The notes beneath the pieces are model-generated. The model had not been told where the DNA came from and made no database searches. It saw nothing but the letters and a program-made list of their open reading frames with translations. From the NCBI GenBank assembly GCA_003169975.1, contig PNAA01000049.1:1-57275 (forward strand): 57,275 bases of DNA, given 5' to 3'. This stretch comes from Spartobacteria bacterium. GTDB taxonomy: Bacteria > Verrucomicrobiota > Verrucomicrobiia > Chthoniobacterales > UBA10450. Position numbers and translations under genes: made by a program. The first letter of the stretch is position 1. The number at the start of each line of letters is the position of its first letter. Of this stretch, positions 44,747-57,275 are shown piece after piece.

Positions 44747-44889
44747 ACCGGCGTCGAGTTCTCGATCCACGAGCAAATATATCAACACATCCGGCGATTG
44801 AAACGAATCTTGAAGCTCCTGGAGCGGGGAGACACCAGAACGTCGAGTCGCTATCGATTTTCATTGCCTAGGCCAATAACATCATACAA

Positions 44890-44902
44890 TATATGTCATA
44901 TA
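44890..44902. repeat. 13-base palindrome TATATGTCATATA at insertion site A
   Basis: TATATGTCATATA is a perfect palindrome around its central base. It lies two bases upstream of the target duplication of element A. An identical copy occurs at 49839-49851 at the same offset from element B. Confidence 0.85.
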
Positions 44903-44985
44903 AAATAGCGTGGTGTTGGGGTGCATATCGTTATAGAGATTATAACCTTGCTTCGGCTCCCACTGTTCGACTGAAATCACGTCCG

Positions 44986-45450
44986 ATGCCGACGGACGAC
45001 GAAGCGAACAGATTTTACCGGGCAATGTCCGACGCAGAACTGGATAATTGGTTAGCTGGAGCTGCTGCGGATCACCATCATCGGGAACGAGCGCGCCTTG
45101 AAAAAGAACGTCGGCTGAAAGAGCGAGATGACCAGGCAGCTGAACGTCGCCACCTTGAAAATCTGCAAGCGATTGGAAAGACCGATCCGTGGACGAAGGC
45201 CCAAACACTCGCAACGATTGGATCGTTTGTTCTGGGCGTTTTAGCAACGCTTCTAGCCTTTGGGCTCTGCCACTCCATACCTCAGCGCGCAACGCCTGAA
45301 GCAGCATGGCCAACATCATCCCCGACCATCCAATTGCCCATTTCCGCCTCAGCGGCACCGGAGGCAAGTTCCAGCATTTCCACACCATCACCGCAGCCAA
45401 CGGCAACAGAATCACCGCTTGCGTCAGCGTCACCAACCCCGAAGCCGTAA
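44986..45450 (+). CDS. Transposon cargo: coiled-coil membrane-anchored protein
   Basis: 154 aa from the ATG at 44986; the open frame upstream crosses the element terminus and is not likely coding. A charged coiled-coil (RERARLEKERRLKERD...) is followed by one membrane segment (TIGSFVLGVLATLLAFGLC) and a Pro/Ser/Thr-rich tail. The stop abuts the transposase stop (45451), tail to tail. An opposite-strand frame covers the same bases but looks less protein-like. No family is recognised. Confidence 0.6.
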   Translation: MPTDDEANRFYRAMSDAELDNWLAGAAADHHHRERARLEKERRLKERDDQAAERRHLENLQAIGKTDPWTKAQTLATIGSFVLGVLATLLAFGLCHSIPQRATPEAAWPTSSPTIQLPISASAAPEASSSISTPSPQPTATESPLASASPTPKP

Positions 45451-46359
45451 TCATATTCCCGCTGTCGCGAAAGCCTGCTCGAATTTCGCGTCCTCTTTGC
45501 GCCGCATGAAAGCGGCAGTTATTTCAACTACATGGCGCAAATCCCACCGTTCAATCTCAACGCCTGCGGCTATGGCTGGCGTAGTTCCGAGCGTGGTATG
45601 CTTGCGGACAAAGTTGTAAACGCCTAGGTGCAGCGCGACCGCCAGCTTGTGCGTCGCCAAGTCCTTGCTGTAGCCAAGTCCCTTCCGCTGAAACCGCTTT
45701 AGTTCCTGCCGCACAGTCAGGAATGCGCGCTCAATATGGCTCGTGGTTAGGTTTTGAAGGTTTGGCGAGCCTACTACCGCCTTGCGCTCCGACGTAACCA
45801 GCTTACGAACGCCTTCATTCTTTCCATAACGCGCCAGCGTGCCATCTAGCAGGATCGGATCACCGAAAATCTTGGTTTCCGTTCCGTAGCTGTAGCCTTC
45901 GTAACCGAAGTGAGTTCGGATGTGCGCGGGATATGCGGGTAAGTTGTCGGTTGCGATCTGGACAGGGCCGCTCACCCGCTTACTCACGTCCTCGACGAAT
46001 GAATAACCAGTCCACCAGTCGCGCTTCCCGATCTTGTGGGAAAAGATAAGTTTGGTGTCAGAGTCGATGCAGGCCCAGAGCCAAAAGTCCCCGCGCTCGG
46101 GGTCTTTCCTGTTCGCCATACGGCCAGCGTGACAGCCGACGTATTGCCATTGCTCATCCATCTCGATTCGGTTGCAACGCAAGTCTCGAAACTCCGAATC
46201 CATGTAGTCCGCAAAGGCAGCGCCCGTCTCTCGGATGATGCGCGTAATGACATACTTTTCTGTCCTGAGCATTCGGGCGATTGCTCGAATCGGAGTTCCC
46301 TCGCAGAGTGCCGCTAGAACGTAAGCCTGTTTTTCTTTCGAGAGTCTTCGGTTGTCCAT
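45451..46359 (-). CDS. IS1-family DDE transposase (element A)
   Basis: 302 aa, single ORF. An N-terminal helix-turn-helix (residues 5-45) precedes a DDE core with D68 in IEMDEQWQYVG, D138 in ATDNLPAY and E210 in TSHIERAFLTVRQ. Then come KGLGYSKDL and YNFVRKHTTLGTTP. These match the IS1 InsB landmarks (DEQWGYVG, TDGWPLY, RIERHNLNLRQH). No frameshifted InsA/InsB arrangement is present. It is about 70 percent identical by eye to the transposase of element B, so the two are related but distinct elements. The promoter is in the divergent region at 46375-46436. Confidence 0.93.
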   Translation of the reverse strand: MDNRRLSKEKQAYVLAALCEGTPIRAIARMLRTEKYVITRIIRETGAAFADYMDSEFRDLRCNRIEMDEQWQYVGCHAGRMANRKDPERGDFWLWACIDSDTKLIFSHKIGKRDWWTGYSFVEDVSKRVSGPVQIATDNLPAYPAHIRTHFGYEGYSYGTETKIFGDPILLDGTLARYGKNEGVRKLVTSERKAVVGSPNLQNLTTSHIERAFLTVRQELKRFQRKGLGYSKDLATHKLAVALHLGVYNFVRKHTTLGTTPAIAAGVEIERWDLRHVVEITAAFMRRKEDAKFEQAFATAGI

Positions 46360-46374
46360 AATTTATGTTTGACT

Positions 46375-46436
46375 ACTTGAAAGAATATATATAACGTTAG
46401 TATAGGTCAAGATAAATAGTATATATATTTTCAAGT
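46375..46436. promoter_or_regulatory. Divergent promoter with palindromic operator (element A)
   Basis: Leftward, TTGACC (complement of 46405-46410) and TATTCT (complement of 46382-46387) are spaced 17 bases apart and end 22 bases before the transposase ATG. Inverted arms ACTTGAAAGAATATATATA and TATATATATTTTCAAGT flank this promoter; the right arm runs into the GTG of the divergent small gene. A regulator bound here would control both genes. Confidence 0.7.
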
Positions 46437-46605
46437 GGTTAAGACACAACACGGCGGGAAACGGAAAGGCGCTGGCCGAAAGCCACAGGGCAAAAAGCCG
46501 GTTCTGGTCACGCTGACAGAGACAAACGTGAAACGGGCAAAGAAGCGCGAAGATAACTTCTCCGGGCTGCTGGATCGGCTGCTGGCCGACTGGATAAACC
46601 GCTAG
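46435..46605 (+). CDS. Small AGRKP/ribbon-helix-helix-like protein (element A)
   Basis: 56 aa from the GTG at 46435; the upstream frame hits TAG at 46417, so no other start is available. It is Lys/Arg-rich with GGKRKGAGRKPQGKK, a predicted strand (VLVTLTETNV) and two helices ending NFSGLLDRLLADW, a layout like ribbon-helix-helix repressors. A clear relative (GGKRQGAGRKPMGK, NFSGLLDRLLAAW) is at the same place in element B. It is divergent from the transposase across a palindrome, so I infer a repressor or partner of transposition. The stop overlaps the convergent gene by 4 bases (CTAG). Confidence 0.75.
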   Translation: MVKTQHGGKRKGAGRKPQGKKPVLVTLTETNVKRAKKREDNFSGLLDRLLADWINR

Positions 46606-46781
46606 CTCTTCTTGATCGCGGCGCGCTTTTTGATGTCTCGAAATTCCTTTTTCATTCTCGGATCGGAAAGCAAATCCTCGCCTCGGACTTTCTTGCTTCC
46701 CGTTGCTTTGCGAACCATTACGGCGATGTCCGTATTGAAGTCGGCAGCATCCTCTTTCGAGGAGGGTTTTCGAGTTGCCAC
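46602..46781 (-). CDS. Small conserved transposon protein, MVRKAT family (element A)
   Basis: 59 aa from a GTG at 46779-46781. The sequence includes DFNTDIAVMVRKATGS, GEDLL and MKKEFRDIKKR. It aligns by eye with a 55-aa protein of element B (DFNQQTADMVRKATQS, GEELL, LKKQFREIKKQ), and in both elements it converges on the AGRKP gene. Conservation of sequence, size and position across two diverged elements argues it is a real gene. It is helical and charged. The function is unknown; it could modulate the transposase or act with the AGRKP protein. Confidence 0.72.
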   Translation of the reverse strand: MATRKPSSKEDAADFNTDIAVMVRKATGSKKVRGEDLLSDPRMKKEFRDIKKRAAIKKS

Positions 46782-46819
46782 GCTTCACTGTTTCAGATTT
46801 CCTTTGGTTCGCAAGTAAT

Positions 46820-47359
46820 ATGGCCGCAAGCCTGAAGAGTCGGATCGATAAGCTGCTGAACGATCTCGGGGCCAAGCCTGCTCCCGGCACCGTTGATATT
46901 CGCAACAGGTTGTCGATTTTCTCCCGACTCGCCGAGGACCTTGAGAGTGGCCAAAGCGCGATTGAGGCGGATCAGCAGATAGCGGTTATGCAGCAAACGA
47001 TAAGCGAGTTGCAGTCGAAGCTTCAGCTCGCGAACGCGCAGAGCGAGCAGCTTCAGAAAGTACTTGATGCCGCTAGAGACAAAATCCGGGAGATAGAGCA
47101 GCAGCAGGAACAGAACGAAGACCTCAGCACCATAGAGCGCCAGATTTTGTACTTCTTTGACAGAAACGGCGAAGCATTTGAGCCCGGAGTAGCACGACAC
47201 ATTGGCAAACCCGCAGGATCGCTCGACGATATGCTTGACAGGCTGGTTGCAGACAAATTTCTGCATTCCAAGATGGAATGGGAGGTGTCGGTTAAAATCT
47301 ACTTCCTCAGCAAGAAGGGGAAATCTTGGTTGGCTAGGGACAGGGAGCGCGGCCCCTGA
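46820..47359 (+). CDS. Transposon cargo: coiled-coil protein with winged-helix-like C terminus
   Basis: 179 aa from the ATG at 46820 (MAASLKSRIDKLL). The middle is a long coiled coil (IAVMQQTISELQSKLQLANA...IREIEQQQEQ). The C-terminal 60 residues (LSTIERQILYFFDRN...KPAGSLDDMLDRLVADKFL...VKIYFLSKKGKSWL) look like a winged helix: helices with a strand-turn-strand wing. It may bind DNA. It stops 40 bases before the right element end. Confidence 0.7.
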   Translation: MAASLKSRIDKLLNDLGAKPAPGTVDIRNRLSIFSRLAEDLESGQSAIEADQQIAVMQQTISELQSKLQLANAQSEQLQKVLDAARDKIREIEQQQEQNEDLSTIERQILYFFDRNGEAFEPGVARHIGKPAGSLDDMLDRLVADKFLHSKMEWEVSVKIYFLSKKGKSWLARDRERGP

Positions 47360-47557
47360 ATGATCATATAATTTCCAGAGGGATAGGCACCCCAACACCA
47401 ATAGCGTTGGTCAATGAAAAAGCTTGCACACCCGGTGGCGCCCCGTGCAAAAGAAGAATCGTCCGGGAGTTATCCGCCAACGACCACAGAGCGATGCCGC
47501 CAGAGAGCGAGCCGACCGACGAGTGCAGGAGCCGACGACGTGCAGTTGGAGGCTTTT

Positions 47558-47848
47558 ATGCGAACGATCCCGCCCGACAAATTTCCCGACCCCTGGCTCT
47601 ACGATACAACCGCGCTTCTGAAAGACCTCGATTCGATCCGTGAGCTCATTTTACGAATCCCCCTGACCCAAGAAAGCTTTGCACCCGTGAACGTAGCCGT
47701 AGGGGCCGTTTGGGAGTTGCGTGACCGGCTCCGGTACCTCATCGCGCTCCAAGTGGCAGGCCAGCGCGAATGGACCGCAGAGCACACCCCGAAAAAGGCA
47801 AAGCGGGTGCGGAAGATGGCGTCTATCAGCGGAGCCGGAGCGGCCTGA
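47558..47848 (+). CDS. Small protein of unknown function
   Basis: 96 aa. The start is set by GGAGG (47548-47552) at good spacing before the ATG at 47558; the frame is open further up but reaches the insertion point of element A. The protein is soluble and helical, with a hydrophobic core region (APVNVAVGAVWELRDRLRYLIAL) and a basic C terminus (KKAKRVRKM). No family is recognised. After it comes a 266-base stretch with no gene that I can support. Confidence 0.55.
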   Translation: MRTIPPDKFPDPWLYDTTALLKDLDSIRELILRIPLTQESFAPVNVAVGAVWELRDRLRYLIALQVAGQREWTAEHTPKKAKRVRKMASISGAGAA

Positions 47849-48114
47849 GAGCACCCTGCCCCGCCGGCGGACGCCCCTCTCCTAATGCCTCGGCGGGAAG
47901 CGGTTCCCACACATTGCAGGCGGCGTTTCTCCTTTACTTCCCAAAACAACTCTGGGAAACAACTCTGCAAAGGCATCCCAACGGGCGACCTCGCTGCGCT
48001 GGCTCCTGTGCTCCGTTACTTTGCCATGCGCCAGCCAGCTTTTGAAAGGCGAAGCGGGACCAATTTTTTTAGAACTTGCGCCCCGTCGCACCGAACAACA
48101 AAATCGGCGGCACT

Positions 48115-48816
48115 ATGGGAGAACTGCTTGCCGACTGCCCTCGCTGCAACGCCAAAAACATGACCTTCGATGTCAAATCCGCCTGCTTGGTTGGATGCCC
48201 CCGATACCATTGGGAGCAGTGGTTTGAGGCATTTTCCATTTGCCGACATTGCCAAGTTTCAACGGTTTTTGTGCTTGTTCAGGAACGAAGTGAGAGCGCG
48301 CAAGTGATCAGCGGCGGCACAGGAGTTCCGACCCTTTCACCAGTAAACAAATACTTCAGCGTAAACGGCTATATTAGCCTGAAGAACCTTGCTACGACAA
48401 AGCCGCCGGACCACGTGCCCATCAACATCGCGAATGCGTTCAACGAAGCCGCAACTTGCATGGCTGTCGACTGTTTCAACGCCGCAGCAGCGATGTTTCG
48501 TCTTTGTATCGATCACGCCACAACATCGGTTCTTCCGAGCGAAGATTCAGACGGCCTCAACACGAAGATTCGAAGAAGCCTAGGACTGCGACTACCTTGG
48601 TTGTTCGACCACAATTTGCTACCTCAGGGGCTTCGGGAGCTCTCTCACTGCATTAAAGAGGATGGGAATGACGCGGCCCATGCTGGCACCTTGTTAAAGA
48701 ACGATGCCGAAGACCTGCTCGACTTCACTCACGCTCTTCTCCAGCGTCTTTACACTGAACCAGAGCAGCTTCGTCTGGCGCAAGAACGCCGAGATAAACG
48801 CCGAGGCACACCTTAA
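48115..48816 (+). CDS. DUF4145-like protein with N-terminal zinc ribbon
   Basis: 233 aa from the ATG at 48115. CPRC near the N terminus and CRHC about 36 residues later form a probable zinc ribbon. The rest (INIANAFNEAATCMAVDCFNAAAAMFRLCIDHA ... HCIKEDGNDAAHAG) has the helical pattern of DUF4145, a domain seen in restriction-modification and other defence or mobile contexts. The role is not known. Codon use is less GC-rich than in the core genes. Confidence 0.7.
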   Translation: MGELLADCPRCNAKNMTFDVKSACLVGCPRYHWEQWFEAFSICRHCQVSTVFVLVQERSESAQVISGGTGVPTLSPVNKYFSVNGYISLKNLATTKPPDHVPINIANAFNEAATCMAVDCFNAAAAMFRLCIDHATTSVLPSEDSDGLNTKIRRSLGLRLPWLFDHNLLPQGLRELSHCIKEDGNDAAHAGTLLKNDAEDLLDFTHALLQRLYTEPEQLRLAQERRDKRRGTP

Positions 48817-48831
48817 GCAGCAGCCGCCGTT

Positions 48832-49038
48832 TCAAGCTGCGCGCGCCGCGAAGTAGCGATCACAGGCCGGGTTGACCGAGGCGAGATCCCGCTTTTCCCG
48901 CTGACATTTCGAGCAGACGAAGTTGTCAAGCGGAGTTTGCCTTGTTCTTGGATTCCAGTTCCCGCTCGGGAGATGCTCCCCGCGCTCGGTCCACTCTGCG
49001 CATAACCCACACTGATACGGCCTTTTAAGCGTGTTCAT
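48832..49038 (-). CDS. Small zinc-ribbon protein
   Basis: 68 aa with CGLC near residue 10 and CSKC near residue 42, plus a conserved-looking LDNFVCSKCQREK. The two CxxC pairs suggest a single zinc-binding ribbon. It lies on the same strand and 131 bases downstream of the HUH Rep-like gene, and ends next to the DUF4145-like gene (convergent). A role in the Rep unit is possible but unproven. Confidence 0.6.
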   Translation of the reverse strand: MNTLKRPYQCGLCAEWTERGEHLPSGNWNPRTRQTPLDNFVCSKCQREKRDLASVNPACDRYFAARAA

Positions 49039-49097
49039 CGGTTTTCTTCCATGCTGAGCTTTGCTTCATCGACACACCGCGTCCTCTAGCAACCCTG

Positions 49098-49127
49098 CCG
49101 GGGCGCGCGCTTCGCGCGCATCCCCGG
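49098..49127. other. Strong hairpin downstream of the Rep-like gene
   Basis: CCGGGGCGCGCGC (49098) pairs with GCGCGC and CCCCGG (to about 49127) around TTC. It could be a terminator, or a stem-loop nicking or replication site for the adjacent HUH protein. Confidence 0.45.
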
Positions 49128-49169
49128 GCATGGGCCCTTCGGGTCTGTCGTTCTGACTGCGATTGCCGG

Positions 49170-49802
49170 TCAGTTGGACAAAATCGAATCCAGCCTAGGC
49201 GACTCTCCAGTTCGGAGGTCATACGGGTGCGCCAATGCGTTTCCGCGCGGAATGCCCCTGAGATCGCGCTCAGACAGGCCGTGCCGCTCGCGGACGCCAT
49301 AAACCTTACCCTTGATGCCCAGCCCCCGCCTAGCCGCCAAGAACGACCAAACGGAGTGGCTGATTTCAATCCTGCAAGCCCGACTAAATTTTCCGCTCTC
49401 GTAGGCGTCTGCCCCGTAGAGGTCGTCCGGTTTAAGGATGTAGTCTGTGCTTTCGTTTCTCCCGAACGGTCTGACCCGAGCGAAACCGCCCGCTATCGCG
49501 CGCCACTTTGCCATCGCAATAAACCGAGCCGACTTCGTTAGGCCGCCGTCAGGAAGGCCTGCAAGTAAAGCGTGCAGGTGCCGTCGTCCGGTCTGTTCCC
49601 CCGACTCGAATCGCAGCGCCCACAGCAGTTTTTTTCGTGGCGTTTTCCATTGATCAGCTATTGCCCGCCACCAGACAAAGCCAATTTTACACAGTACGTC
49701 TTCGTTAGGCACGAAATGGGGCCGGCGCGCGTCGTAGTATGTCAGCGAGGCAAAAAGCTGCCACCGCACCTGACCTAATATGTAAGCGTTCGCGTCCTCC
49801 AT
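49170..49802 (-). CDS. HUH-type replication initiator/nickase-like protein
   Basis: 210 aa. The ATG at 49800-49802 follows a strong AGGAGG (complement of 49810-49815). Motif 1 is FASLTYY (17-23). Motif 2 is GRRHLHALLAG with H75 and H77 flanking a hydrophobic residue. Motif 3 is STDYILKPDD with Y121-x-x-K124. This order and the YxxK form match rolling-circle Rep proteins with one catalytic Tyr, such as those of ssDNA phages and small plasmids. The length is short, and no helicase domain follows. It may be a remnant of an integrated rolling-circle replicon or a domesticated nickase. Confidence 0.72.
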   Translation of the reverse strand: MEDANAYILGQVRWQLFASLTYYDARRPHFVPNEDVLCKIGFVWWRAIADQWKTPRKKLLWALRFESGEQTGRRHLHALLAGLPDGGLTKSARFIAMAKWRAIAGGFARVRPFGRNESTDYILKPDDLYGADAYESGKFSRACRIEISHSVWSFLAARRGLGIKGKVYGVRERHGLSERDLRGIPRGNALAHPYDLRTGESPRLDSILSN

Positions 49803-49838
49803 CCCCTACCCTCCTAGATCCAGACTCATGCTTGCAAC

Positions 49839-49851
49839 TATATGTCATATA
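49839..49851. repeat. 13-base palindrome TATATGTCATATA at insertion site B
   Basis: Identical to 44890-44902 (identity continues to 15 bases, TATATGTCATATAAA). It lies two bases before the target duplication of element B, as for element A. It is also upstream of the Rep-like gene. Confidence 0.85.
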
Positions 49852-49920
49852 AAGTCGGAGGGTGTTGGTGCCGCTCCTGTATGGAGATTATGGTGCGGGG
49901 CCGTTCTAGCCCTTTTTCTC

Positions 49921-50637
49921 CTATGTAGCGGTGTTGCCTGCGGGGCAAGCTGTAAACCTAACATCAGCTTCAAACGCCACGTTTTTGCCAACCAAATAAG
50001 CACAATAAGTGCTCTGGCGACTTTTCCCGAAAATATCCCGATATCGAATAGTTCCGCGAGCATACAGGACTTCGCCTTCATCTTTCGCGATAGAAGTCCA
50101 CTGTTGGGCCGAGATTTCCTTTTCTGCTTTGGCGGTAGCCGGAAGCCTAACTCCGGGAGCGACGACCATTTTGCCAGCCCGATCGTTTTCTGTGAATTGT
50201 TCGATAACTGCCATTTCCTCTCGCGTTATTGGGACCGACGCCCACACGTTGCCTGCGATTTCAACATCAAGTGCAGGAGTCGGACCAGAATTGAGCAAGA
50301 AAATCTCAGCCTCTGGTTGAGGGTGAACTTGCTTAAGTCTTATTTCGACGGCAGTAACCCAGGCCCGCTGGCCATTTTGCATCAAGGCTACCTGTCGGCG
50401 CAGAGAGAGGGTTTGGATAATGGCGGCAGTTGTGTAGCAAAATCCAACCAAGCCAATGGCACCGTTGATTATAAGACTATAAATCCAATACTGCTGTTCG
50501 TTTATACGACCATCATAATCATCCTTTGCATTGCTAATTTCGTTCTTCTCGCCTTGGGATTTTGGATGTTGCGCGAGTGAGTTATTTACGACGACGAAAA
50601 ACAAAAGGATGGCAAATAGCGATCTCATAAAAGGCAT
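49921..50637 (-). CDS. Transposon cargo: membrane protein of unknown function
   Basis: 238 aa from the ATG at 50635-50637, which has AGCAGG upstream and opens a signal peptide or helix (LFAILLFFVVVNNSLAQ). A second helix follows (YSLIINGAIGLVGFCYTTAAII). The C-terminal half is soluble and beta-rich, with NGQRAWVTA, LLNSGPTPALDV and GTIRYRDIFGKSRQSTYCAY. These are traits of a common family of uncharacterised membrane proteins. The gene starts 4 bases after the preceding gene on the same strand, forming a cargo operon. Confidence 0.75.
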   Translation of the reverse strand: MPFMRSLFAILLFFVVVNNSLAQHPKSQGEKNEISNAKDDYDGRINEQQYWIYSLIINGAIGLVGFCYTTAAIIQTLSLRRQVALMQNGQRAWVTAVEIRLKQVHPQPEAEIFLLNSGPTPALDVEIAGNVWASVPITREEMAVIEQFTENDRAGKMVVAPGVRLPATAKAEKEISAQQWTSIAKDEGEVLYARGTIRYRDIFGKSRQSTYCAYLVGKNVAFEADVRFTACPAGNTAT

Positions 50638-50641
50638 GAAA

Positions 50642-51211
50642 TCACCTGCTAAAAACGGGAAGCATCCTCTCAAAAAACTCCATTCTACCAAGAGCGCGGC
50701 AGAGCGAGTAATTGAAGCCCACGGGAAAGAATTCCGTAGGCTCGCACGGTTGATGGTCGTCCGGCGTGGCAGTAAGCGCGAAGTAAGCCTGATAAGTTCT
50801 CATGATAGGCGTTCGCCTGCCATAAATGAGGCCGAACGAGTCGATACAAGAAAACAAAGTGAGATCGTTGATGGCCTCGGGAAAATCCAAAAGCTCCTGC
50901 GGGTCACTGGTAGCGTGCCGAATGAAGTCGTAACCGAGCATGAAATCTAATCCCTTCGCGTGCTCCCCGACCGATGGAGCTTTCCCGCGCTCTTTGCCAA
51001 GAACTTCCAGGTTCTTATAGGAGGCGATAACGAGCAGATGAATAACCAGCGAATCAGCTTTAACGAACCAGAGCGAAGCAGCGGTTTCCAAGAGCCGTTG
51101 GAGCGCGCTTTCCCGGCTAATCGTGGTTACGATTCCGGCTTTTCGGGCGGCTGCTTGTTTGGGCGTGAGAGCAACTTTCTTTCGTCGCCCAAACTCGTGT
51201 TTTTTCCCCAC
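50642..51211 (-). CDS. Transposon cargo: unknown 189-aa protein
   Basis: 189 aa with a GTG start. A basic N terminus (GKKHEFGRRKKVALTPKQAAARKAG) is followed by a helical body (LQRLLETAASLWFVKADSLVIHLLVIASYKNLEVLG) and aromatic-rich segments. No motif that I recognise; it might bind nucleic acid through the basic start. It is co-directional and nearly contiguous with the membrane-protein gene, so they probably act together. Confidence 0.65.
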   Translation of the reverse strand: MGKKHEFGRRKKVALTPKQAAARKAGIVTTISRESALQRLLETAASLWFVKADSLVIHLLVIASYKNLEVLGKERGKAPSVGEHAKGLDFMLGYDFIRHATSDPQELLDFPEAINDLTLFSCIDSFGLIYGRRTPIMRTYQAYFALTATPDDHQPCEPTEFFPVGFNYSLCRALGRMEFFERMLPVFSR

Positions 51212-51303
51212 GACCGAAACGATAGGAAACCAAGCTTTTCAACCGCAAGCCAATTCGGTTTGCCATTTGCCGTCATCACAAACTAGGGAATAGTAGAGCC
51301 GCA

Positions 51304-51471
51304 ATGGCCGATCAAGACTTTAACCAGCAAACCGCCGACATGGTTCGGAAGGCAACGCAATCCCCTCCCGTTGACGGCGAAGAATTGCTCGAATCCGAGG
51401 AACTGAAAAAGCAGTTCCGCGAGATCAAAAAGCAATTACCCAAGCCAAGCGGCGAGCAGCCGGTCAAGTAG
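51304..51471 (+). CDS. Small conserved transposon protein, MVRKAT family (element B)
   Basis: 55 aa from the ATG at 51304 (MADQDFNQQTADMVRKA...). It is related to the 59-aa protein of element A: both have DFN, MVRKAT, GE(E/D)LL and KK(Q/E)FR(E/D)IKK at matching spacing. It is co-directional with the transposase and convergent with the AGRKP gene, overlapping it by 36 bases. The function is unknown. Confidence 0.72.
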   Translation: MADQDFNQQTADMVRKATQSPPVDGEELLESEELKKQFREIKKQLPKPSGEQPVK

Positions 51472-51597
51472 ACCGGAAAAGTTCCGCTCCCGCTCCCTCG
51501 CTCGCACCACGTTCGCTCTCGTGAGCGTGACGTTGTAGCGATATTTCCCCATTGGCTTTCGGCCTGCTCCCTGTCGTTTTCCGCCTCGATTATTCAT
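51436..51597 (-). CDS. Small AGRKP/ribbon-helix-helix-like protein (element B)
   Basis: 53 aa from the ATG at 51595-51597. GGKRQGAGRKPMGK is followed by YNVTLTRANV and NFSGLLDRLLAAW, closely matching the 56-aa protein of element A. It is divergent from the transposase (74 bases between starts) with a palindrome over the transposase promoter. The layout is the mirror image of element A, so the module is conserved as a unit. I infer an autoregulatory DNA-binding protein. Confidence 0.75.
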   Translation of the reverse strand: MNNRGGKRQGAGRKPMGKYRYNVTLTRANVVRARERERNFSGLLDRLLAAWLG

Positions 51598-51620
51598 TTG
51601 AAAAAATCTCCATCTTTTCT

Positions 51621-51664
51621 ATTGACGATCTTTGAATATATCGCCATAATATCAAATAGTCAAT
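51621..51664. promoter_or_regulatory. Transposase promoter inside a nested palindrome (element B)
   Basis: TTGACG (51622-51627) and CATAAT (51645-51650) are 17 bases apart and end 21 bases before the transposase ATG. ATTGAC (51621) pairs with GTCAAT (51659) and TTTGA (51631) with TCAAA (51652), so the promoter lies within a palindrome. Element A has the same spacing and TTGA half-sites. Confidence 0.72.
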
Positions 51665-51671
51665 TAAAAAT

Positions 51672-52568
51672 ATGAACACTCGCCTAACGAAAGAGAAAAG
51701 AGCTTTAGTATTGGCCGCGATTTCACAGGGTGCGCCGATCAATTCCGTCTGCCGGATTTTCAGCATCGGCAAGCACACCGTGCTTCGTTTGATCCGCGAC
51801 ACGGGCGAGATGTTCGCCGATTACATGGACAAGAATTTCCGCGATCTACCCTGCGAAAGAATCGAGATGGATGAACAATGGCAATACGTCGGCTGCCATG
51901 CGCGCAGGATGAATGCGCCTGAGCCGGAACGGGGCGATTTCTGGTTGTGGGCGGCGATTGACGCCGACACGAAACTAATCTTTTCCCACCGGATCGGGAA
52001 ACGGGATTGGATTACCGGCAATATGTTCGTCGAGGACGTGAGCGAGCGCGTCACCGGCCCCGTCCAGATCGCCACCGACAACCTCCCGGCTTACCCGTTC
52101 CATATCCGACAATACTTCGGATACGAGGGGTATTCTTACGGCACAGAAACCAAGATTTTCGGCGAGTCCAGACTACTGGACGGCACGCTGTCACGCATCG
52201 GACGCAACGAAGGCGTTGCCAAGATGCAGACAGCGGAGCGCAAGGCGGTAGTCGGCTCGCCGGACTTAGAAAGCCTTACCACTTCCCACATTGAACGGGC
52301 GTTTTTGACCGTCCGACAGGAACTAAAGCGGTTTCAACGGAAGGGACTCGGCTACTCGAAAGACTTGGAGATGCACAAAGCGGGCGTGGCGCTTCACTTT
52401 GGCATCTACAACTTCGTGCGGAAGCATCACACGCTCGGGACAACGCCCGCCGTGGCCGCAGGCGTTGAGGAAGGCCGTTGGAGTTTAGAACGGGTAGTTG
52501 AAATGACAGACGAATACCTGCGGGCGAAAGAGGACGCGAAGTTTGAAGCGGCTTTTGCTCAACTTTGA
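51672..52568 (+). CDS. IS1-family DDE transposase (element B)
   Basis: 298 aa. An N-terminal helix-turn-helix is followed by the DDE core: D67 (IEMDEQWQYVG), D137 (ATDNLPAY) and E209 (TSHIERAFLTVRQ). YSKDLEMHKAGVALHFG and YNFVRKHHTLGTTP follow. It is intact, with a good promoter, so the element may be active. One dispersed word GCCTAACGA occurs at codon 4-7 (51682). Confidence 0.93.
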   Translation: MNTRLTKEKRALVLAAISQGAPINSVCRIFSIGKHTVLRLIRDTGEMFADYMDKNFRDLPCERIEMDEQWQYVGCHARRMNAPEPERGDFWLWAAIDADTKLIFSHRIGKRDWITGNMFVEDVSERVTGPVQIATDNLPAYPFHIRQYFGYEGYSYGTETKIFGESRLLDGTLSRIGRNEGVAKMQTAERKAVVGSPDLESLTTSHIERAFLTVRQELKRFQRKGLGYSKDLEMHKAGVALHFGIYNFVRKHHTLGTTPAVAAGVEEGRWSLERVVEMTDEYLRAKEDAKFEAAFAQL

Positions 52569-52611
52569 GATTGTTCTGGATTCGCCGATTTCACGGCTTC
52601 ATAAGCTTCGT

Positions 52612-52977
52612 ATGACCAATCCAGAAACTTCTCAATCTCCAGACGAGGAATCGAATCCGGAAGGCGATCCCAATGCCATAGTGATAGAAGGTGCGCCCGC
52701 AGAATTGCGGGATGCGGGCGACCAAGTTGTTTCCACTGGGCGATACCTTTATTTCCACGATCGCTCAGGCGCAAAGTTTTATCCGAATGATCAAGCGTCC
52801 CTGAGCACGCTTCAAAGCCGTGCAAAAACTCTATTTCTGATTGAGGAAAAGGAATCGAGAACTGTTTCGGGTGTTTACGAGTGTACTCACCCAGGCTCGA
52901 ACGATCCATCCCACTTTCACGTAAAACTGACATCAGGGGGAGCATCGGATGCAACAGTCAGTGCGACCTTGGAATAA
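52612..52977 (+). CDS. Transposon cargo: hypothetical protein
   Basis: 121 aa from the ATG at 52612. An acidic, Pro/Glu-rich start is followed by a compact domain (GRYLYFHDRSGAKFYPND ... SGVYECTHPGSNDPSHFHVKL). An opposite-strand frame (52559-52954) is also open and reads fairly well, so the strand is not certain; I prefer the plus strand on composition. No family is recognised. Confidence 0.45.
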   Translation: MTNPETSQSPDEESNPEGDPNAIVIEGAPAELRDAGDQVVSTGRYLYFHDRSGAKFYPNDQASLSTLQSRAKTLFLIEEKESRTVSGVYECTHPGSNDPSHFHVKLTSGGASDATVSATLE

Positions 52978-53066
52978 TCACAGGTGGCGGGATTATTACC
53001 GGCGCACTGTTGCCCGTTGATGGCGCTCCGGCGCGTCCGTAAGATTCGACCTTCCCGTTCACATTT

Positions 53067-53324
53067 TTACGGATAGGGCACGAACTGAACCTGGATGGGC
53101 GTAGGAAATGGCGTCGGCATTGGATTCGCTATTTGCTCTAGGGCTCGTGTTTGCCGCTCTTGGTCAATGTCGGCGATCTCTTGCTTTAATGCGGCGGTTT
53201 TAGCTGGACCATCCGGCATTTGTTGGATCATTTCAAAATTTCGCTGCATCATCTCGACGTATGGGTCCGTGGCACAACTGCTCAGAACGGTTGCTAGGAT
53301 GAGTGCCTGCATTATTGTTTTCAT
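53067..53324 (-). CDS. Transposon cargo: small lipoprotein
   Basis: 85 aa from the ATG at 53322-53324. MKTIMQALILATVLSSC is a lipoprotein signal peptide with lipobox LSSC. The mature part is a short helix-rich segment (MMQRNFEMIQQMPDGPAKTAALKQEI) and a Pro-rich C terminus. The longer upstream frame has no signal and is not used. Confidence 0.65.
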   Translation of the reverse strand: MKTIMQALILATVLSSCATDPYVEMMQRNFEMIQQMPDGPAKTAALKQEIADIDQERQTRALEQIANPMPTPFPTPIQVQFVPYP

Positions 53325-53433
53325 GCGGCCCCGGTGTATGGGATTCTGGGGGAAGTCGCAAGCTATTAGAATTTTGGGTTGGTTGATGCGGATTTTGCTC
53401 GACAAGGGCCTTAGTTGGCTACAAACCCAATAA

Positions 53434-53691
53434 ATGAGCTTCATTGATGTCGGTCATGGAGAAAATTTGAACTCGAATCTCGTCAAAGGATGGACGGATG
53501 GCTTCCGAACAGAGAAAGAGAAGATTACTGGACCCCGACTACCCAACGGCTCCTATCCGGTTCATTGGGAAAGGGTAACGAAGCGGTGGGTGCGAATCAA
53601 AACTAAGGATGAAAGCTCTTATCTTTTAGGGGATGAAGCAGAGAAAGCCCTCATAAAGCTTGAGAAGCTTGAAAATCTCAAATCAGATTAA
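53434..53691 (+). CDS. Transposon cargo: small hypothetical protein
   Basis: 85 aa, charged and soluble (GWTDGFRTEKEKITG, HWERVTKRWVRIKTKDE, LIKLEKLENL). No motif recognised. It is convergent with, and overlaps by 14 bases, a 58-aa gene on the other strand. Confidence 0.5.
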   Translation: MSFIDVGHGENLNSNLVKGWTDGFRTEKEKITGPRLPNGSYPVHWERVTKRWVRIKTKDESSYLLGDEAEKALIKLEKLENLKSD

Positions 53692-53854
53692 ACGTAAGAT
53701 GTTCCGGCAGCGTAAGAACATCCAATAGTCGGCGAACCCGATCCTCGGGCAGAGTGCAATACCAGTGCTCCTTTCCGCGACTAGCCTCGAAATAAACGCC
53801 TTTTTCGTCCCTGCCAAACCAGGCTGAAGTCCAAACAAATTCTTCTGGCGTCAC
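53678..53854 (-). CDS. Transposon cargo: small hypothetical protein
   Basis: 58 aa from a GTG at 53852-53854, the first start after an in-frame TGA. The sequence is rich in aromatic residues (EEFVWTSAWFGRDEKGVYFEA, then HWYCTLPEDRVRRLLDVL is helical). It is 87 bases from the right end of the element. No family known. Confidence 0.5.
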   Translation of the reverse strand: MTPEEFVWTSAWFGRDEKGVYFEASRGKEHWYCTLPEDRVRRLLDVLTLPEHLTFNLI

Positions 53855-53949
53855 GCTTCATAATATACACACTATATCGAAAAAGTCAAGTGAAATCTTT
53901 GCCTCGCCCATAATTTCAATAATCGAGTGGCACCAACACCAGTCGGAGG

Positions 53950-53983
53950 GTGTTGCCTCCGTTTGAGTATGGAAATTGCGGCT
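53950..53983. other. Possible third IS1-like end (remnant)
   Basis: GGTGTTGCCTCCG followed by GAGTATGGAAATTGCGG resembles the left end of element B (GGTGTTGGTGCCG, TATGGAGATTATGG). It begins directly after the target duplication of B, so B may have landed at the edge of an older related element. No matching right end is seen. Confidence 0.4.
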
Positions 53984-54005
53984 TCGCGGTTGAGTTGTCC
54001 AGAAA

Positions 54006-54032
54006 GCGGAACGAAGCGGAACGAAGCGGAAC
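54006..54032. repeat. Short tandem repeat
   Basis: GCGGAACGAA occurs twice in a row (54006-54025), followed by a partial third copy GCGGAACCGA. Confidence 0.7.
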
Positions 54033-54207
54033 CGATGCGAACGATGCTGATTTCACGGCACTTATAGAGGCAAAACCGAATCGCCGGCCGGGGGTGGAAC
54101 TTGTCCAGCTGGAATCGCGTCGCCAAGGCCATAGGTTCCACCCCCCCACGAGGGAAACCGATGTCCAAGTCGGCCGTAGCTATGAGTCCCGCCCGGCGTC
54201 ACCGCCC

Positions 54208-55353
54208 CTACCGAGCACCGAGTTCCGCGCTCGAGAAAACCTGGAAGCTGGCGTTAAGACCGCCGGCGACGAGCACCGTGCCGTTGCCCAACAGGGTCGA
54301 CGTGTGATTCTCGCGGGCGTTATTGAGGCTGCCGGTTCGCGTCCAGATTCCACTTGCCGGATCGTAAAGTTCCGCGCTCGCGAGAACGCCGTTCGGGTAG
54401 CTGTATCCTCCTGCAACGAGCACTCTGCCATTGGGCAGCAAGGTCGCAGAGTGGAAAGTTCGTCCCGTGGCGAGTCTGCCCGTAAACGTCCAGGTGCCGC
54501 TGGCCGGATCGTAGAGTTCCGCAGTGAAGACATCCTCGTTAGGGCGATACTGTCCCCCGGTAATCAGCACCTTACCACCGGGCAGCAAAGTCGCCGTATG
54601 GGAGCTGCGTTTGGTCGCAAGACTTCCGGTGGTGGCCCAGGTGCCGCTGGCCGGATCGTAGAGTTCTGCGCTCGCAATTGCAACACCTCTCTGATTCTGC
54701 CCCGCGGTGACGAGCACCTTGCCGTTTTGCAGCAACGTCGCCGTGTGCTCCACGCGTGCGCTGTTGAGACTTCCGGTCGCCGCCCAGGTCCCGCTCGCCG
54801 GATCGTAGAGTTCCGCGCTCGCGAGAAGGCCGCTATCGTTCGCTCCCCCTGCCACAAGCACCTTGCCGTTGGGCAGCAGCGTCGCCGTGTGAGCGAAGCG
54901 TGCCGTGGCGAGTCGACCGGTCGGCGTCCAGGTCCCGGTCGCCGGGTCGTAGAGCTGCGCGCTTGCGACAGAAGCGCCGCTGCCGTCCAGGCCTCCCGCG
55001 ACAAGCACTTCGCCGTTGGGCAGCAACGTCGCCGTATGAGCTGCGCGTGCGCCAGGGAGGCTGCCGGTCGCCGTCCAGGCTCCGCTGGCCGGATCATAGA
55101 GCTCCGCACTCGCGATTTCGCCCTCGTTGAGACCGCCCGCGACGAGGACCCTGCCGTCAGGCAACAACGTCGCTGTATGCGACGAGCGCGCCATGGTCAG
55201 GCTGCCAGTAGGCTGAAAAACAAAGGGCGCACCCGGGCAAGGCTGCACCAGCACCAGCCCCGCACCGAGAAAAAGCAGCGGGAACGCGATCCGCCGGGCA
55301 AGAAGGGAGCTAGCTGCTCGAAGGCCAAAGATCAGGGAATGCAACATCTTCAT
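54208..55353 (-). CDS. Secreted Kelch-type beta-propeller protein 1
   Basis: 381 aa from the ATG at 55351-55353, which opens a signal peptide (FPLLFLGAGLVLVQP, cleaved near GAP) in line with the paralogue next door. Seven Kelch-like blades follow, each about 48 residues. They are built on [16 protein letters not shown] ... [18 protein letters not shown] with small changes. Seven blades suit a closed propeller. The C terminus ends SAELGAR, as in the other copies. Function could be surface binding or galactose-oxidase-like scaffold; no catalytic residues are apparent. Confidence 0.9.
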   Translation of the reverse strand: MKMLHSLIFGLRAASSLLARRIAFPLLFLGAGLVLVQPCPGAPFVFQPTGSLTMARSSHTATLLPDGRVLVAGGLNEGEIASAELYDPASGAWTATGSLPGARAAHTATLLPNGEVLVAGGLDGSGASVASAQLYDPATGTWTPTGRLATARFAHTATLLPNGKVLVAGGANDSGLLASAELYDPASGTWAATGSLNSARVEHTATLLQNGKVLVTAGQNQRGVAIASAELYDPASGTWATTGSLATKRSSHTATLLPGGKVLITGGQYRPNEDVFTAELYDPASGTWTFTGRLATGRTFHSATLLPNGRVLVAGGYSYPNGVLASAELYDPASGIWTRTGSLNNARENHTSTLLGNGTVLVAGGLNASFQVFSSAELGAR

Positions 55354-55639
55354 AGTTTTAGTCCGGATATCCCAACAGCGCGGAGGGTAACAACCATTGA
55401 ATGACGGCGTCAAGCAAGAAATTGCGGGGCTTGTCCCGAATGCGAATGAAAGGGTCAGTTGCAGAATTTCGCTCTATAGAACGCAGCGAAGCGAAGGCAA
55501 AATAAACAGTTGATATATGTCAGCTAAAGCAACCCTGGCCGAATCTAACACTGCTGCAGAAATCAGGACACGTTGGAAACGCCGGCTACTTGGCCCGGAT
55601 CGTTGATCGCTCGGCCATAGCTATTAGTCCCGCCAGGCG
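55354..55639. repeat. Spacer between Kelch genes 1 and 2
   Basis: It is highly similar to 56736-57032: shared ATTGAATGACGGCGTCAAGC, GCAGAATTTCGCTCTAT, TATATGTCAGCTAAAGCAAC and TCGGCC.TAGCTATTA. It marks a unit of about 1.4 kb that was duplicated in tandem. It presumably holds the promoter of gene 1 (leftward). No gene is seen in it. Confidence 0.75.
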
Positions 55640-56735
55640 TCACGGCCCCCGGCGAGCGCCGAGTTCCGCGCTCGCGAGAGCGTGGAAGCTGGCGTCAAGC
55701 CCGCCAGCGACGAGCACCTTGCCGTTGCCCAGCAATGCCGCCGTGTGAATATAGCGCCCAGTGATAAGGCTGCCGGCTTGCATCCATGTGCCGCTCGGCG
55801 AATCGTAGAGTTCCGCGCTCGCGAGAACTAAGCCCGTCCCAGCGCCGCCGGCGACGAGCACCTTGCCGTTGGGTAGCAACGTCGCCGTGTGCGCTTCGCG
55901 TGCGGTCTTGAGGTTGCGGGTCGGCGTCCAGCTTCCGCTCGCCGGGTCGTAGAGTTCCGCGCTCGCGAGAGCGCTGTTCTTTAGACCGCCGGCGACGAGC
56001 ACCGTGCCGTTGGGCAGCAAGGTCGCCGTATGGGAGTCGCGTGCGGTCTTAAGGCTGCCGGTCGTCGTCCAGCTTCCACTCGCCGGATCATAGAGTTCCG
56101 CGCTCGCGAGAGCGACGCTGGTCCCAAAACCGCCAGCGACGAGCACCTTGCCGTTGGGCAACAAGGTGGCGGTGTGCGCGTTGCGTGCAATGCTAAGGCT
56201 GCCGGTACGCCGTCCAGGTCCCCGTCGCCGGATCGTAGAGTTCCGCGCTCGCCAGAATGCTACCGGGGGCGCTACCGCCGGCGACGAGCACCTTGCCGTT
56301 GAGTAGCAACGTCGCCGTGGGACCAATGCGGGCAGTGACGAGGCGGCCGGTGCCGGCGCCGCCGTAACCGCAAGCGACCAGCACCTGTCCGTTGGGCAGC
56401 AAGGTCGCCGTGTGAGCGGCACGTGCGATGTTGAGGCTACCGGTCGCTGTCCAAGTCCCGCTCGCCGGGTCGTAGAGTTCCGCACTCGCCAAAAAAACTT
56501 CGGCGTCGTTCACACCCCCTGCCACGAGCACCTTGCCGTTGGGCAGCAACGTCTCCGTGTGACGATAACGTGCGTTAGCGAGGCTACCGGTGGCCTCAAA
56601 AACAAAGGGCGCGGCCGCGCTCGGCTGCGCCAGCACCAACCCCGCACCGAGAAAAAGGAGAGGGAACGCGAGGCGCTGGGCGAGAACCGAGTTAGCTGCT
56701 CGAAGGCCAAAGATCAGGGAATGCAACACCTTCAT
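55640..56735 (-). pseudogene. Secreted Kelch-type protein 2, frameshifted
   Basis: It starts at the ATG 56733-56735 with nearly the same signal peptide as gene 1. It reads well until about 56207, where one extra A in GGTACGCC (GGTCGCC in the paralogue) shifts the frame and brings a stop after [10 protein letters not shown]. The next frame continues the propeller to 55640. Seven blades can be counted across both parts, but the second is shortened ([11 protein letters not shown] runs straight into the next blade). It may be a sequencing error or a recent pseudogene. Confidence 0.82.
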
Positions 56736-57032
56736 AGTTTATAGTCCGGATAACCAACAGCGCAGAGCGTAACGAGCATTGAATGACGGCGTCAAGCAAG
56801 AAATCGCGGGCGGTTGGCCCGGAATTTGGATGAAAGGGTCCGCCGCAGAATTTCGCTCTATCGAAGGCACCGAAGCGAAGGCAAAAATGACAGTTGCTAT
56901 ATGTCAGCTAAAGCAACCCTGACAGGATCTAACCATGGATTACGCGCGTGCAGAAATCAAGGCACGTCTGAAACGTCGGCTACTTGGCCGGATTGTTGAT
57001 CGCTCGGCCGTAGCTATTACTCCCGCCAGGCG
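56736..57032. repeat. Spacer between Kelch genes 2 and 3
   Basis: Second copy of the conserved Kelch spacer described at 55354-55639. It includes TATATGTCAGCTAAAGCAAC, which shares TATATGTCA and TAAA with the palindromic insertion sites of the two transposons. Confidence 0.75.
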
Positions 57033-57275
57033 TCACCGCCCCCGGCGAGCACCGAGTTCCGCGCTCGCGATAGCGCGGTTGTCGACGCCATTACCGGCTG
57101 CGACGAGCACCTTGCCGTTGGGCAGCAATGTCGCCGTGTGAAGCCAGCGTGGGGCGGCGAGGCTGCCGGTGGCCGTCCAGGTCCCGCTCGCCGGATTGTA
57201 GAGCTCCGCGCTCGCGAGAGAGACGCCGTAGTGAATACCGCCTGCGACGAGCACTTGGCCGTTAGGCAGCAACGT
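57033..57275 (-). CDS. Secreted Kelch-type protein 3, partial (C-terminal end)
   Basis: The last 80 residues or so of a third tandem Kelch protein; the 5' part lies beyond the window. [30 protein letters not shown] and a final blade ending [10 protein letters not shown] match genes 1 and 2. The true start is not in the window. Confidence 0.88.
   Translation of the reverse strand, partial: TLLPNGQVLVAGGIHYGVSLASAELYNPASGTWTATGSLAAPRWLHTATLLPNGKVLVAAGNGVDNRAIASAELGARRGR

Follow-up and report, generated by a model that had tools for sequence, protein, structure and literature searches.

A putative IS1-related cargo transposon that probably targets the XerD side of the chromosomal dif site in a Spartobacteria bacterium

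The DNA analysed here (the window) is a stretch of 57,275 nucleotides from contig PNAA01000049.1 of a Spartobacteria bacterium (Chthoniobacterales; assembly GCA_003169975.1). It contains element B, a complete transposon-like unit of 4,080 bp at positions 49861-53940, and a related element A, both of which stand next to sequences resembling the chromosomal dif site, the target of the recombinases XerC and XerD. The features of element B are as follows.

49853..49860, + strand: left 8-bp duplication of B, AGTCGGAG
49861..53940: element B, 4,080 bp
49861..49893, + strand: left terminal inverted repeat
49921..50691, - strand: cargo membrane protein, in no other genome of the family
50642..51211, - strand: cargo protein of 189 amino acids (aa), apparently a recurrent passenger of the transposon family
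51304..51471, + strand: core 55-aa protein, VRKAT type
51436..51597, - strand: core 53-aa protein, ribbon-helix-helix-like, gene transcribed divergently to that of the transposase (CcdA model below cut-off at 18.3 bits)
51672..52568, + strand: transposase, 298 aa, IS1-type DDE (D67, D136, E208)
52543..52977, + strand: cargo small protein, likely ATG start at 52612
53067..53444, - strand: cargo putative lipoprotein with lipobox LSSC, probably starting at the ATG at 53324
53434..53691, + strand: cargo 85-aa protein
53678..53854, - strand: cargo 58-aa protein
53908..53940, - strand: right terminal inverted repeat
53941..53948, + strand: right 8-bp duplication of B, AGTCGGAG

The terminal inverted repeats are 33 bp long, imperfect (82% complementary) and separated by 4,014 bp. 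The termini read GGTGTTGGTGCC ... GGCACCAACACC, and the 8-bp duplication follows directly outside both of them. The GC content is 49-54% within the element vs 61-65% across most of the window. An earlier note, made from the sequence of the window, had described a second IS1-type element of about 4.1 kb with an 8-base duplication, a transposase about 70% identical to that of A and unrelated cargo. This description is confirmed. The identity between the transposases of A (45451-46359, - strand) and B is slightly higher, 74% over 296 aa, and the cargo genes of B have no tblastn match in A.

The transposase of B passes the Pfam model PF03400 (DDE_Tnp_IS1; 46.7 bits, cut-off 24.1) and fails the NCBIfam IS1 equivalog model NF033558 (67.3 bits, cut-off 100). 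It thus appears to be related to IS1 and, by this one curated model, to fall outside IS1 proper. The gene is one intact open reading frame (ORF) of 298 codons, without the insA/insB programmed-frameshift layout; single-ORF members are also admitted to the IS1 family by ISfinder. The catalytic residues D67, D136 and E208 are invariant in all 18 transposases compared. Together with the 53-aa ribbon-helix-helix-like ORF and the 55-aa VRKAT ORF, the transposase forms a core that is common to A, B and several relatives.

The remaining genes of the elements vary. Passengers differ among A, B, L044, L046 (DUF3800), L049 and L045 (P63C), and the complete elements at dif measure between 1,278 bp (without a transposase) and 4,080 bp. 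The membrane-protein gene of B has no relative in the 82 other family genomes searched. Relatives of the 189-aa gene (23-37% identity) occur at 8 further places, spread over 7 other genomes, and each stands close to a family end; in the control, 740 kb contained zero ends scoring at least 21. The gene is a recurrent passenger of the family. The view of the earlier note that new genes are repeatedly taken up between fixed ends and around a fixed core is accordingly supported for the ends, the core and the changing cargo, and only in part for the novelty of the genes, given the recurrence of the 189-aa gene. A defence role of the cargo of B was sought with PADLOC, which returned no match, and is unsupported. 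The feature that organises the family, insertion at dif, was missing from the earlier note. The following features bear on it.

44879..44906, + strand: presumed chromosomal dif site, XerC arm ACATCATACAA, spacer TATATG, XerD arm TCATATAAAAT, intact beside A
44904..44911, + strand: left 8-bp duplication of A, AATAGCGT (last 3 nt of dif + 5)
44912..47399: element A of the same family, 2,488 bp, inserted at dif itself
47400..47407, + strand: right 8-bp duplication of A, AATAGCGT
49828..49855, + strand: dif half-site used by B, foreign XerC arm ATGCTTGCAAC, spacer TATATG, XerD arm TCATATAAAGT

The 14 bases to the left of the duplications of A and B are identical (TATATGTCATATAA). Only four exact copies of them occur in the 4.47-Mb genome, three of which are followed after 8 nt by GGTGTTG. 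Both elements adjoin TATATG-TCATATAA, which beside A is part of an intact 28-bp motif, ACATCATACAA-TATATG-TCATATAAAAT, with the 11+6+11 layout of dif. The motif is identical at 21 of 28 positions to the dif sequence of Bacillus subtilis. Comparisons were made across 213 genomes of the order, most of them draft and metagenomic; single contigs may be chimeric, yet the pattern described below recurs in many. Within 3 mismatches, the motif is found in 81 of the 213 genomes, nearly always as a single copy (control 0). In the relative G086, the 3.76-Mb contig C2 bears the motif at 2.715 Mb; its GC skew is mostly positive before this point and mostly negative from about 2.80 Mb. The genome of the window encodes XerD (above cut-off) and a XerC-like recombinase. 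Because of the layout, the copy number, the skew change in this relative and the recombinase genes, the motif is taken as a probable functional chromosomal dif.

The position of the family relative to dif is regular. The junction TATATGTCATATAA, an 8-nt gap and GGTGTTG, with at most 2 mismatches, occurs 38 times in 30 of the 213 genomes, and the reversed control 0 times. A family end lies exactly 5 bp past the XerD arm at 26 of 62 distinct dif sites when up to 1 mismatch in GGTGTTG is allowed, and at 27 with 2 mismatches. Of the remaining sites, a few are off by one base in their spacing or truncated at the end of a contig; most others are empty. In the consensus of 40 occupied sites, the spacer and nearly the whole XerD arm are at least 80% conserved, the XerC arm is not. 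Loci with a close transposase (at least 57% identity) fall into the dif zone in 12 of 13 cases, the exception being L045; a locus was placed in the zone because dif is present or, in the case of L047, because synteny with the next conserved gene puts it there. The 8-bp duplications were found in A, B, L044, L046 and L049. When ends were searched for independently of dif in 12 genomes, 11 of the 17 found were located in dif zones. In the transposase tree, the close clade is separated from a sister clade with support 100/100, and 8 of 9 rows of the close clade but 0 of 9 of the sister clade are in the dif zone.

Element B is thus very probably a DDE cargo transposon of an IS1-related clade that targets, by sequence, the point 5 bp outside the XerD arm of dif or of a site that keeps the spacer and the XerD arm. 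At the level of the sequences, the ends, the duplications, the 5-bp distance, the recurrence in many genomes and the empty site in relatives are established. Several points weigh against this interpretation. Six of the 17 ends from the genome-wide search fall outside dif zones, and two elements are inserted elsewhere than dif: L045, of 3,190 bp with the duplication CTTCTTTA, and one of 566 bp at G000:C26. Many dif-adjacent ends have no partner bearing a matching duplication, so that only five full-size elements and three remnants of 31-33 bp are complete at dif or dif-like sites. The contig of the window itself shows no clear change in GC skew, and the function of the motif as dif rests on its pattern, its copy number and the skew in only one relative. 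Since 12 of 13 loci and 11 of 17 ends are in dif zones and the others are elsewhere, the targeting is strong but not exclusive.

The three remnants (L103 2202, L105 7173, L108 7455) consist of two fused ends that are still flanked by the 8-bp duplication. At L121 8324 (G164), dif seems to be inverted relative to its conserved neighbour genes.

The sister clade is about 35% identical and comprises nine complete elements, all with other targets, four of them in the genome of the window (L054-L057, on contigs C23, C20, C13 and C15; the others are L058-L062). They are IS1-like cargo transposons of 2.6-4.2 kb with ends GGTAGTGGGTCAGTTTGA and 8-bp duplications, located away from dif. Their passengers include RmrA-like (M78/helix-turn-helix), SoFic-like Fic, Clp-protease-like, P63C and NYN proteins. 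At L059 8858, an end-like sequence, GATGGTGGGTCAGTTTGACTTC, directly follows the duplication of a sister-clade element.

The sequences show where insertion takes place, 5 bp beyond the XerD arm, and what is duplicated, 8 bp consisting of the last 3 nt of dif and their 5 neighbours. The dif site stays intact, which makes it a safe target that is present in related hosts and reusable, and explains both tolerance and repeated use. If one site is used again and again and XerCD-type integration of other modules displaces the earlier dif halves, a stack could build up at the terminus. Element A, element B and a third family end at 53949 would be three layers of it. The features concerned are listed below.

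53949..53977, + strand: third family end (candidate remnant of an element C), GGTGTTGCCTCCGTTTGAGTATGGAAATT at 53949
55503..55530, + strand: dif-like site without an element, between tandem Kelch-like genes
56887..56914, + strand: dif-like site without an element, between tandem Kelch-like genes
44907..57275, continuing to about 58306 beyond the window: DNA apparently accreted on the XerD side of dif; synteny resumes there

The end at 53949 lies directly to the right of the second AGTCGGAG of B and has no partner within the window. Removal of B and one AGTCGGAG puts it as far from the half-site as B is now, and it reads as an older insertion (C) at the same point as B. A comparable tandem reuse of a single duplication is seen in L044, where two elements are present and the dif-proximal one is 1,278 bp long and lacks a transposase. 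At 58186, just before the conserved synteny returns, a further site combines a native XerD arm with a foreign XerC arm, as in the half-site of B. The native XerC arm at 44879, the native XerD-side flank at 58186 and the foreign arms between them are what would be expected from integration of XerCD modules into dif, by which the dif halves were presumably displaced. At least one remnant, L103, entered an array site whose XerC arm is foreign, so that insertion does not depend on a native XerC arm. In many relatives, dif is flanked by the conserved genes that lie here to the left of about 44080 and to the right of about 58307. From dif to the right-hand conserved gene, the distance is 0.2-0.5 kb in G139, G137 and G123 vs 13.4 kb here.

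Dif-like sites recur in the surroundings. From 54208 to the end of the window, and beyond it as far as 58195 of contig C30, Kelch-like repeat genes stand in tandem at intervals of about 1.3 kb, each preceded by a dif-like site, and a similar pair of sites is present on contig C18 (L100). In L043 (2922-6532), L048, L046 and the window (55503-56914), such sites follow one another in the same direction on the XerD side of dif, often at intervals of about 1 kb. These arrays share a recurrent foreign XerC arm (ATGACGATTGA-like) and resemble a chromosomal array of Xer modules. In L102 (7569-11654) and L103 (235-4309), both from G143, the sites lie in segments of about 150 bp with integron-like R boxes (RYYYAAC...GTTRRRY), between single-gene units. 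An identification of the inter-unit sites as integron attC was considered and not adopted: R-box-like flanks are present in G143, but the constant part is the spacer plus the XerD arm, also where R boxes are not seen. Tyrosine recombinases are encoded at G000:C33:916-1539, at C30:104492-105091, on the contig of the window, and at C43:30316-30900. The first is an integron integrase (479 bits vs cut-off 265), and the other two appear similar on visual inspection. The DNA separating A from B encodes a DUF4145 protein (48076-48816) with a match to PHROG 1305 and a 210-aa protein with an HLH motif (49170-49802). The latter was considered as an HUH-type replication protein on account of its HxH motif; with no Pfam or PHROG match and a model pLDDT (predicted local distance difference test) of 34, this is not claimed.

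Other explanations of the arrangement were weighed. IS1-type transposons favour AT-rich targets, and some family members are located elsewhere than dif, so B could be an ordinary IS1-family insertion in AT-rich DNA whose link to dif is due to chance or to a preference for host sites. The same distance to the motif at 26 dif sites of different genomes, the 0 matches of the reversed pattern in 213 genomes and the position of the sister clade in the same genome away from dif make this highly improbable. Equally improbable is that the cargo is resident chromosomal DNA merely flanked by the element. No point in its favour was found, and the membrane-protein gene is missing from the 82 other family genomes. 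The earlier note had named cargo at this locus in element-free strains as evidence against its view; the locus in such relatives, with empty dif, is short and free of the cargo.

Somewhat less remote, though still unlikely, is that the flank motif belongs to the mobile unit, i.e., that B is a Xer-integrating module, like the integrative mobile elements exploiting Xer recombination (IMEX), which was moved by XerCD and whose inverted ends and duplications are relics. The direct repetition of dif-like sites about 1 kb apart would fit, as would the combination of a native XerD arm with a foreign XerC arm at the site of B and at 58186, which is what Xer integration leaves. However, both A and B have matched inverted ends with an 8-bp duplication of their own immediately outside, a dif-like site is present on one side only, and elements are found in both orientations. 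The Xer process seems to act on the modules around B, not on B. For the targeted transposition of B, the transposase, perhaps with the ribbon-helix-helix-like protein, may recognise either XerD-bound dif or the same DNA directly. Recognition through protein contact with XerD (or XerCD) on dif, with Xer as targeting factor, is a possibility that we hold slightly less probable than its opposite. The constant insertion point, 5 bp past the XerD arm, is consistent with it, as are the retention of the spacer and the XerD arm, and not the XerC arm, at occupied sites and the position of the 33-bp L103 remnant in an array site with a foreign XerC arm. Contact with XerC has been proposed for the analogous ISAjo2 group (PMC10132070). 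Direct reading of a 17-bp sequence by the transposase or a small core protein fits the same data.

Tentatively, and with rather less than even confidence, dif hunting may have arisen in an IS1-related transposase clade separately from IS1202 and on the opposite arm, with XerD-bound dif as beacon. In combination with Xer modules, this would turn the terminus of Chthoniobacterales into an accretion zone whose XerD side gathers stacks of transposons and dif-bounded cassettes. Few DDE transposons are site-specific, and the B family would add to the known dif hunters a second, apparently independent group, likewise at 5 bp but on the other Xer arm. Two such families point to a general safe-target strategy, and their comparison would allow the role of bound Xer to be tested. 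Targeting of dif would also account for the accumulation of foreign genes at the terminus in these little-studied soil bacteria, and dif + 5 bp offers a simple handle for the discovery of new passenger genes. A search of papers accessible without subscription revealed none joining the IS1 family, dif and XerD, and one of the same scope for ISMhu11 found nothing.

Among known systems, E. coli IS1 shares with B the PF03400 match over the cut-off, the ends (GGTGTTGGTGCC in B vs GGTGATGCTGCC in IS1, the latter verified against annotated IS1A; 10/12 identical) and the length of the direct repeat (8 bp vs a family criterion of about 8-10 bp). Unlike IS1, B has a single long ORF, several cargo genes, two extra core proteins and a sequence-specific target. 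IMEX and the dif modules of Acinetobacter build arrays at dif-like sites and move by XerCD without inverted ends or duplications. In contrast, B has a dif-like site on one side only, inverted ends and a duplication, and such modules seem to surround it. Tn7 at attTn7 resembles the B family in its safe, conserved chromosomal target and its cargo, but uses a dedicated target protein, TnsD, and a four-protein machine. The Tn5053/Tn402 family differs in its plasmid res sites, serine resolvases and transposition machinery. Known as 'res site hunters', its members are like B in being cargo transposons that seek a site-specific recombination site (PMC7765201). The ISAjo2 group of the IS1202 family comprises the 'dif site hunters' of Acinetobacter, which insert at dif, pdif and dif-like sites (PMC10132070). 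These elements of 1.5 kb lie 5 bp from the XerC arm in a fixed orientation, with a 5-bp duplication (IS1202/ISAjo2 criterion 3-5 bp) and a Tn7/TnsB-like transposase of 441-457 aa (PMC10132070). Common to them and the B family are a DDE element 5 bp from a Xer arm, a site left intact and imperfect inverted repeats. The B family differs in its IS1-type transposase of about 298 aa, the XerD side, the 8-bp duplication, the occurrence in both orientations, the length of up to 4.1 kb with passengers and the host range in Verrucomicrobia (Chthoniobacterales). Element B thus behaves as a dif hunter without belonging to IS1202.

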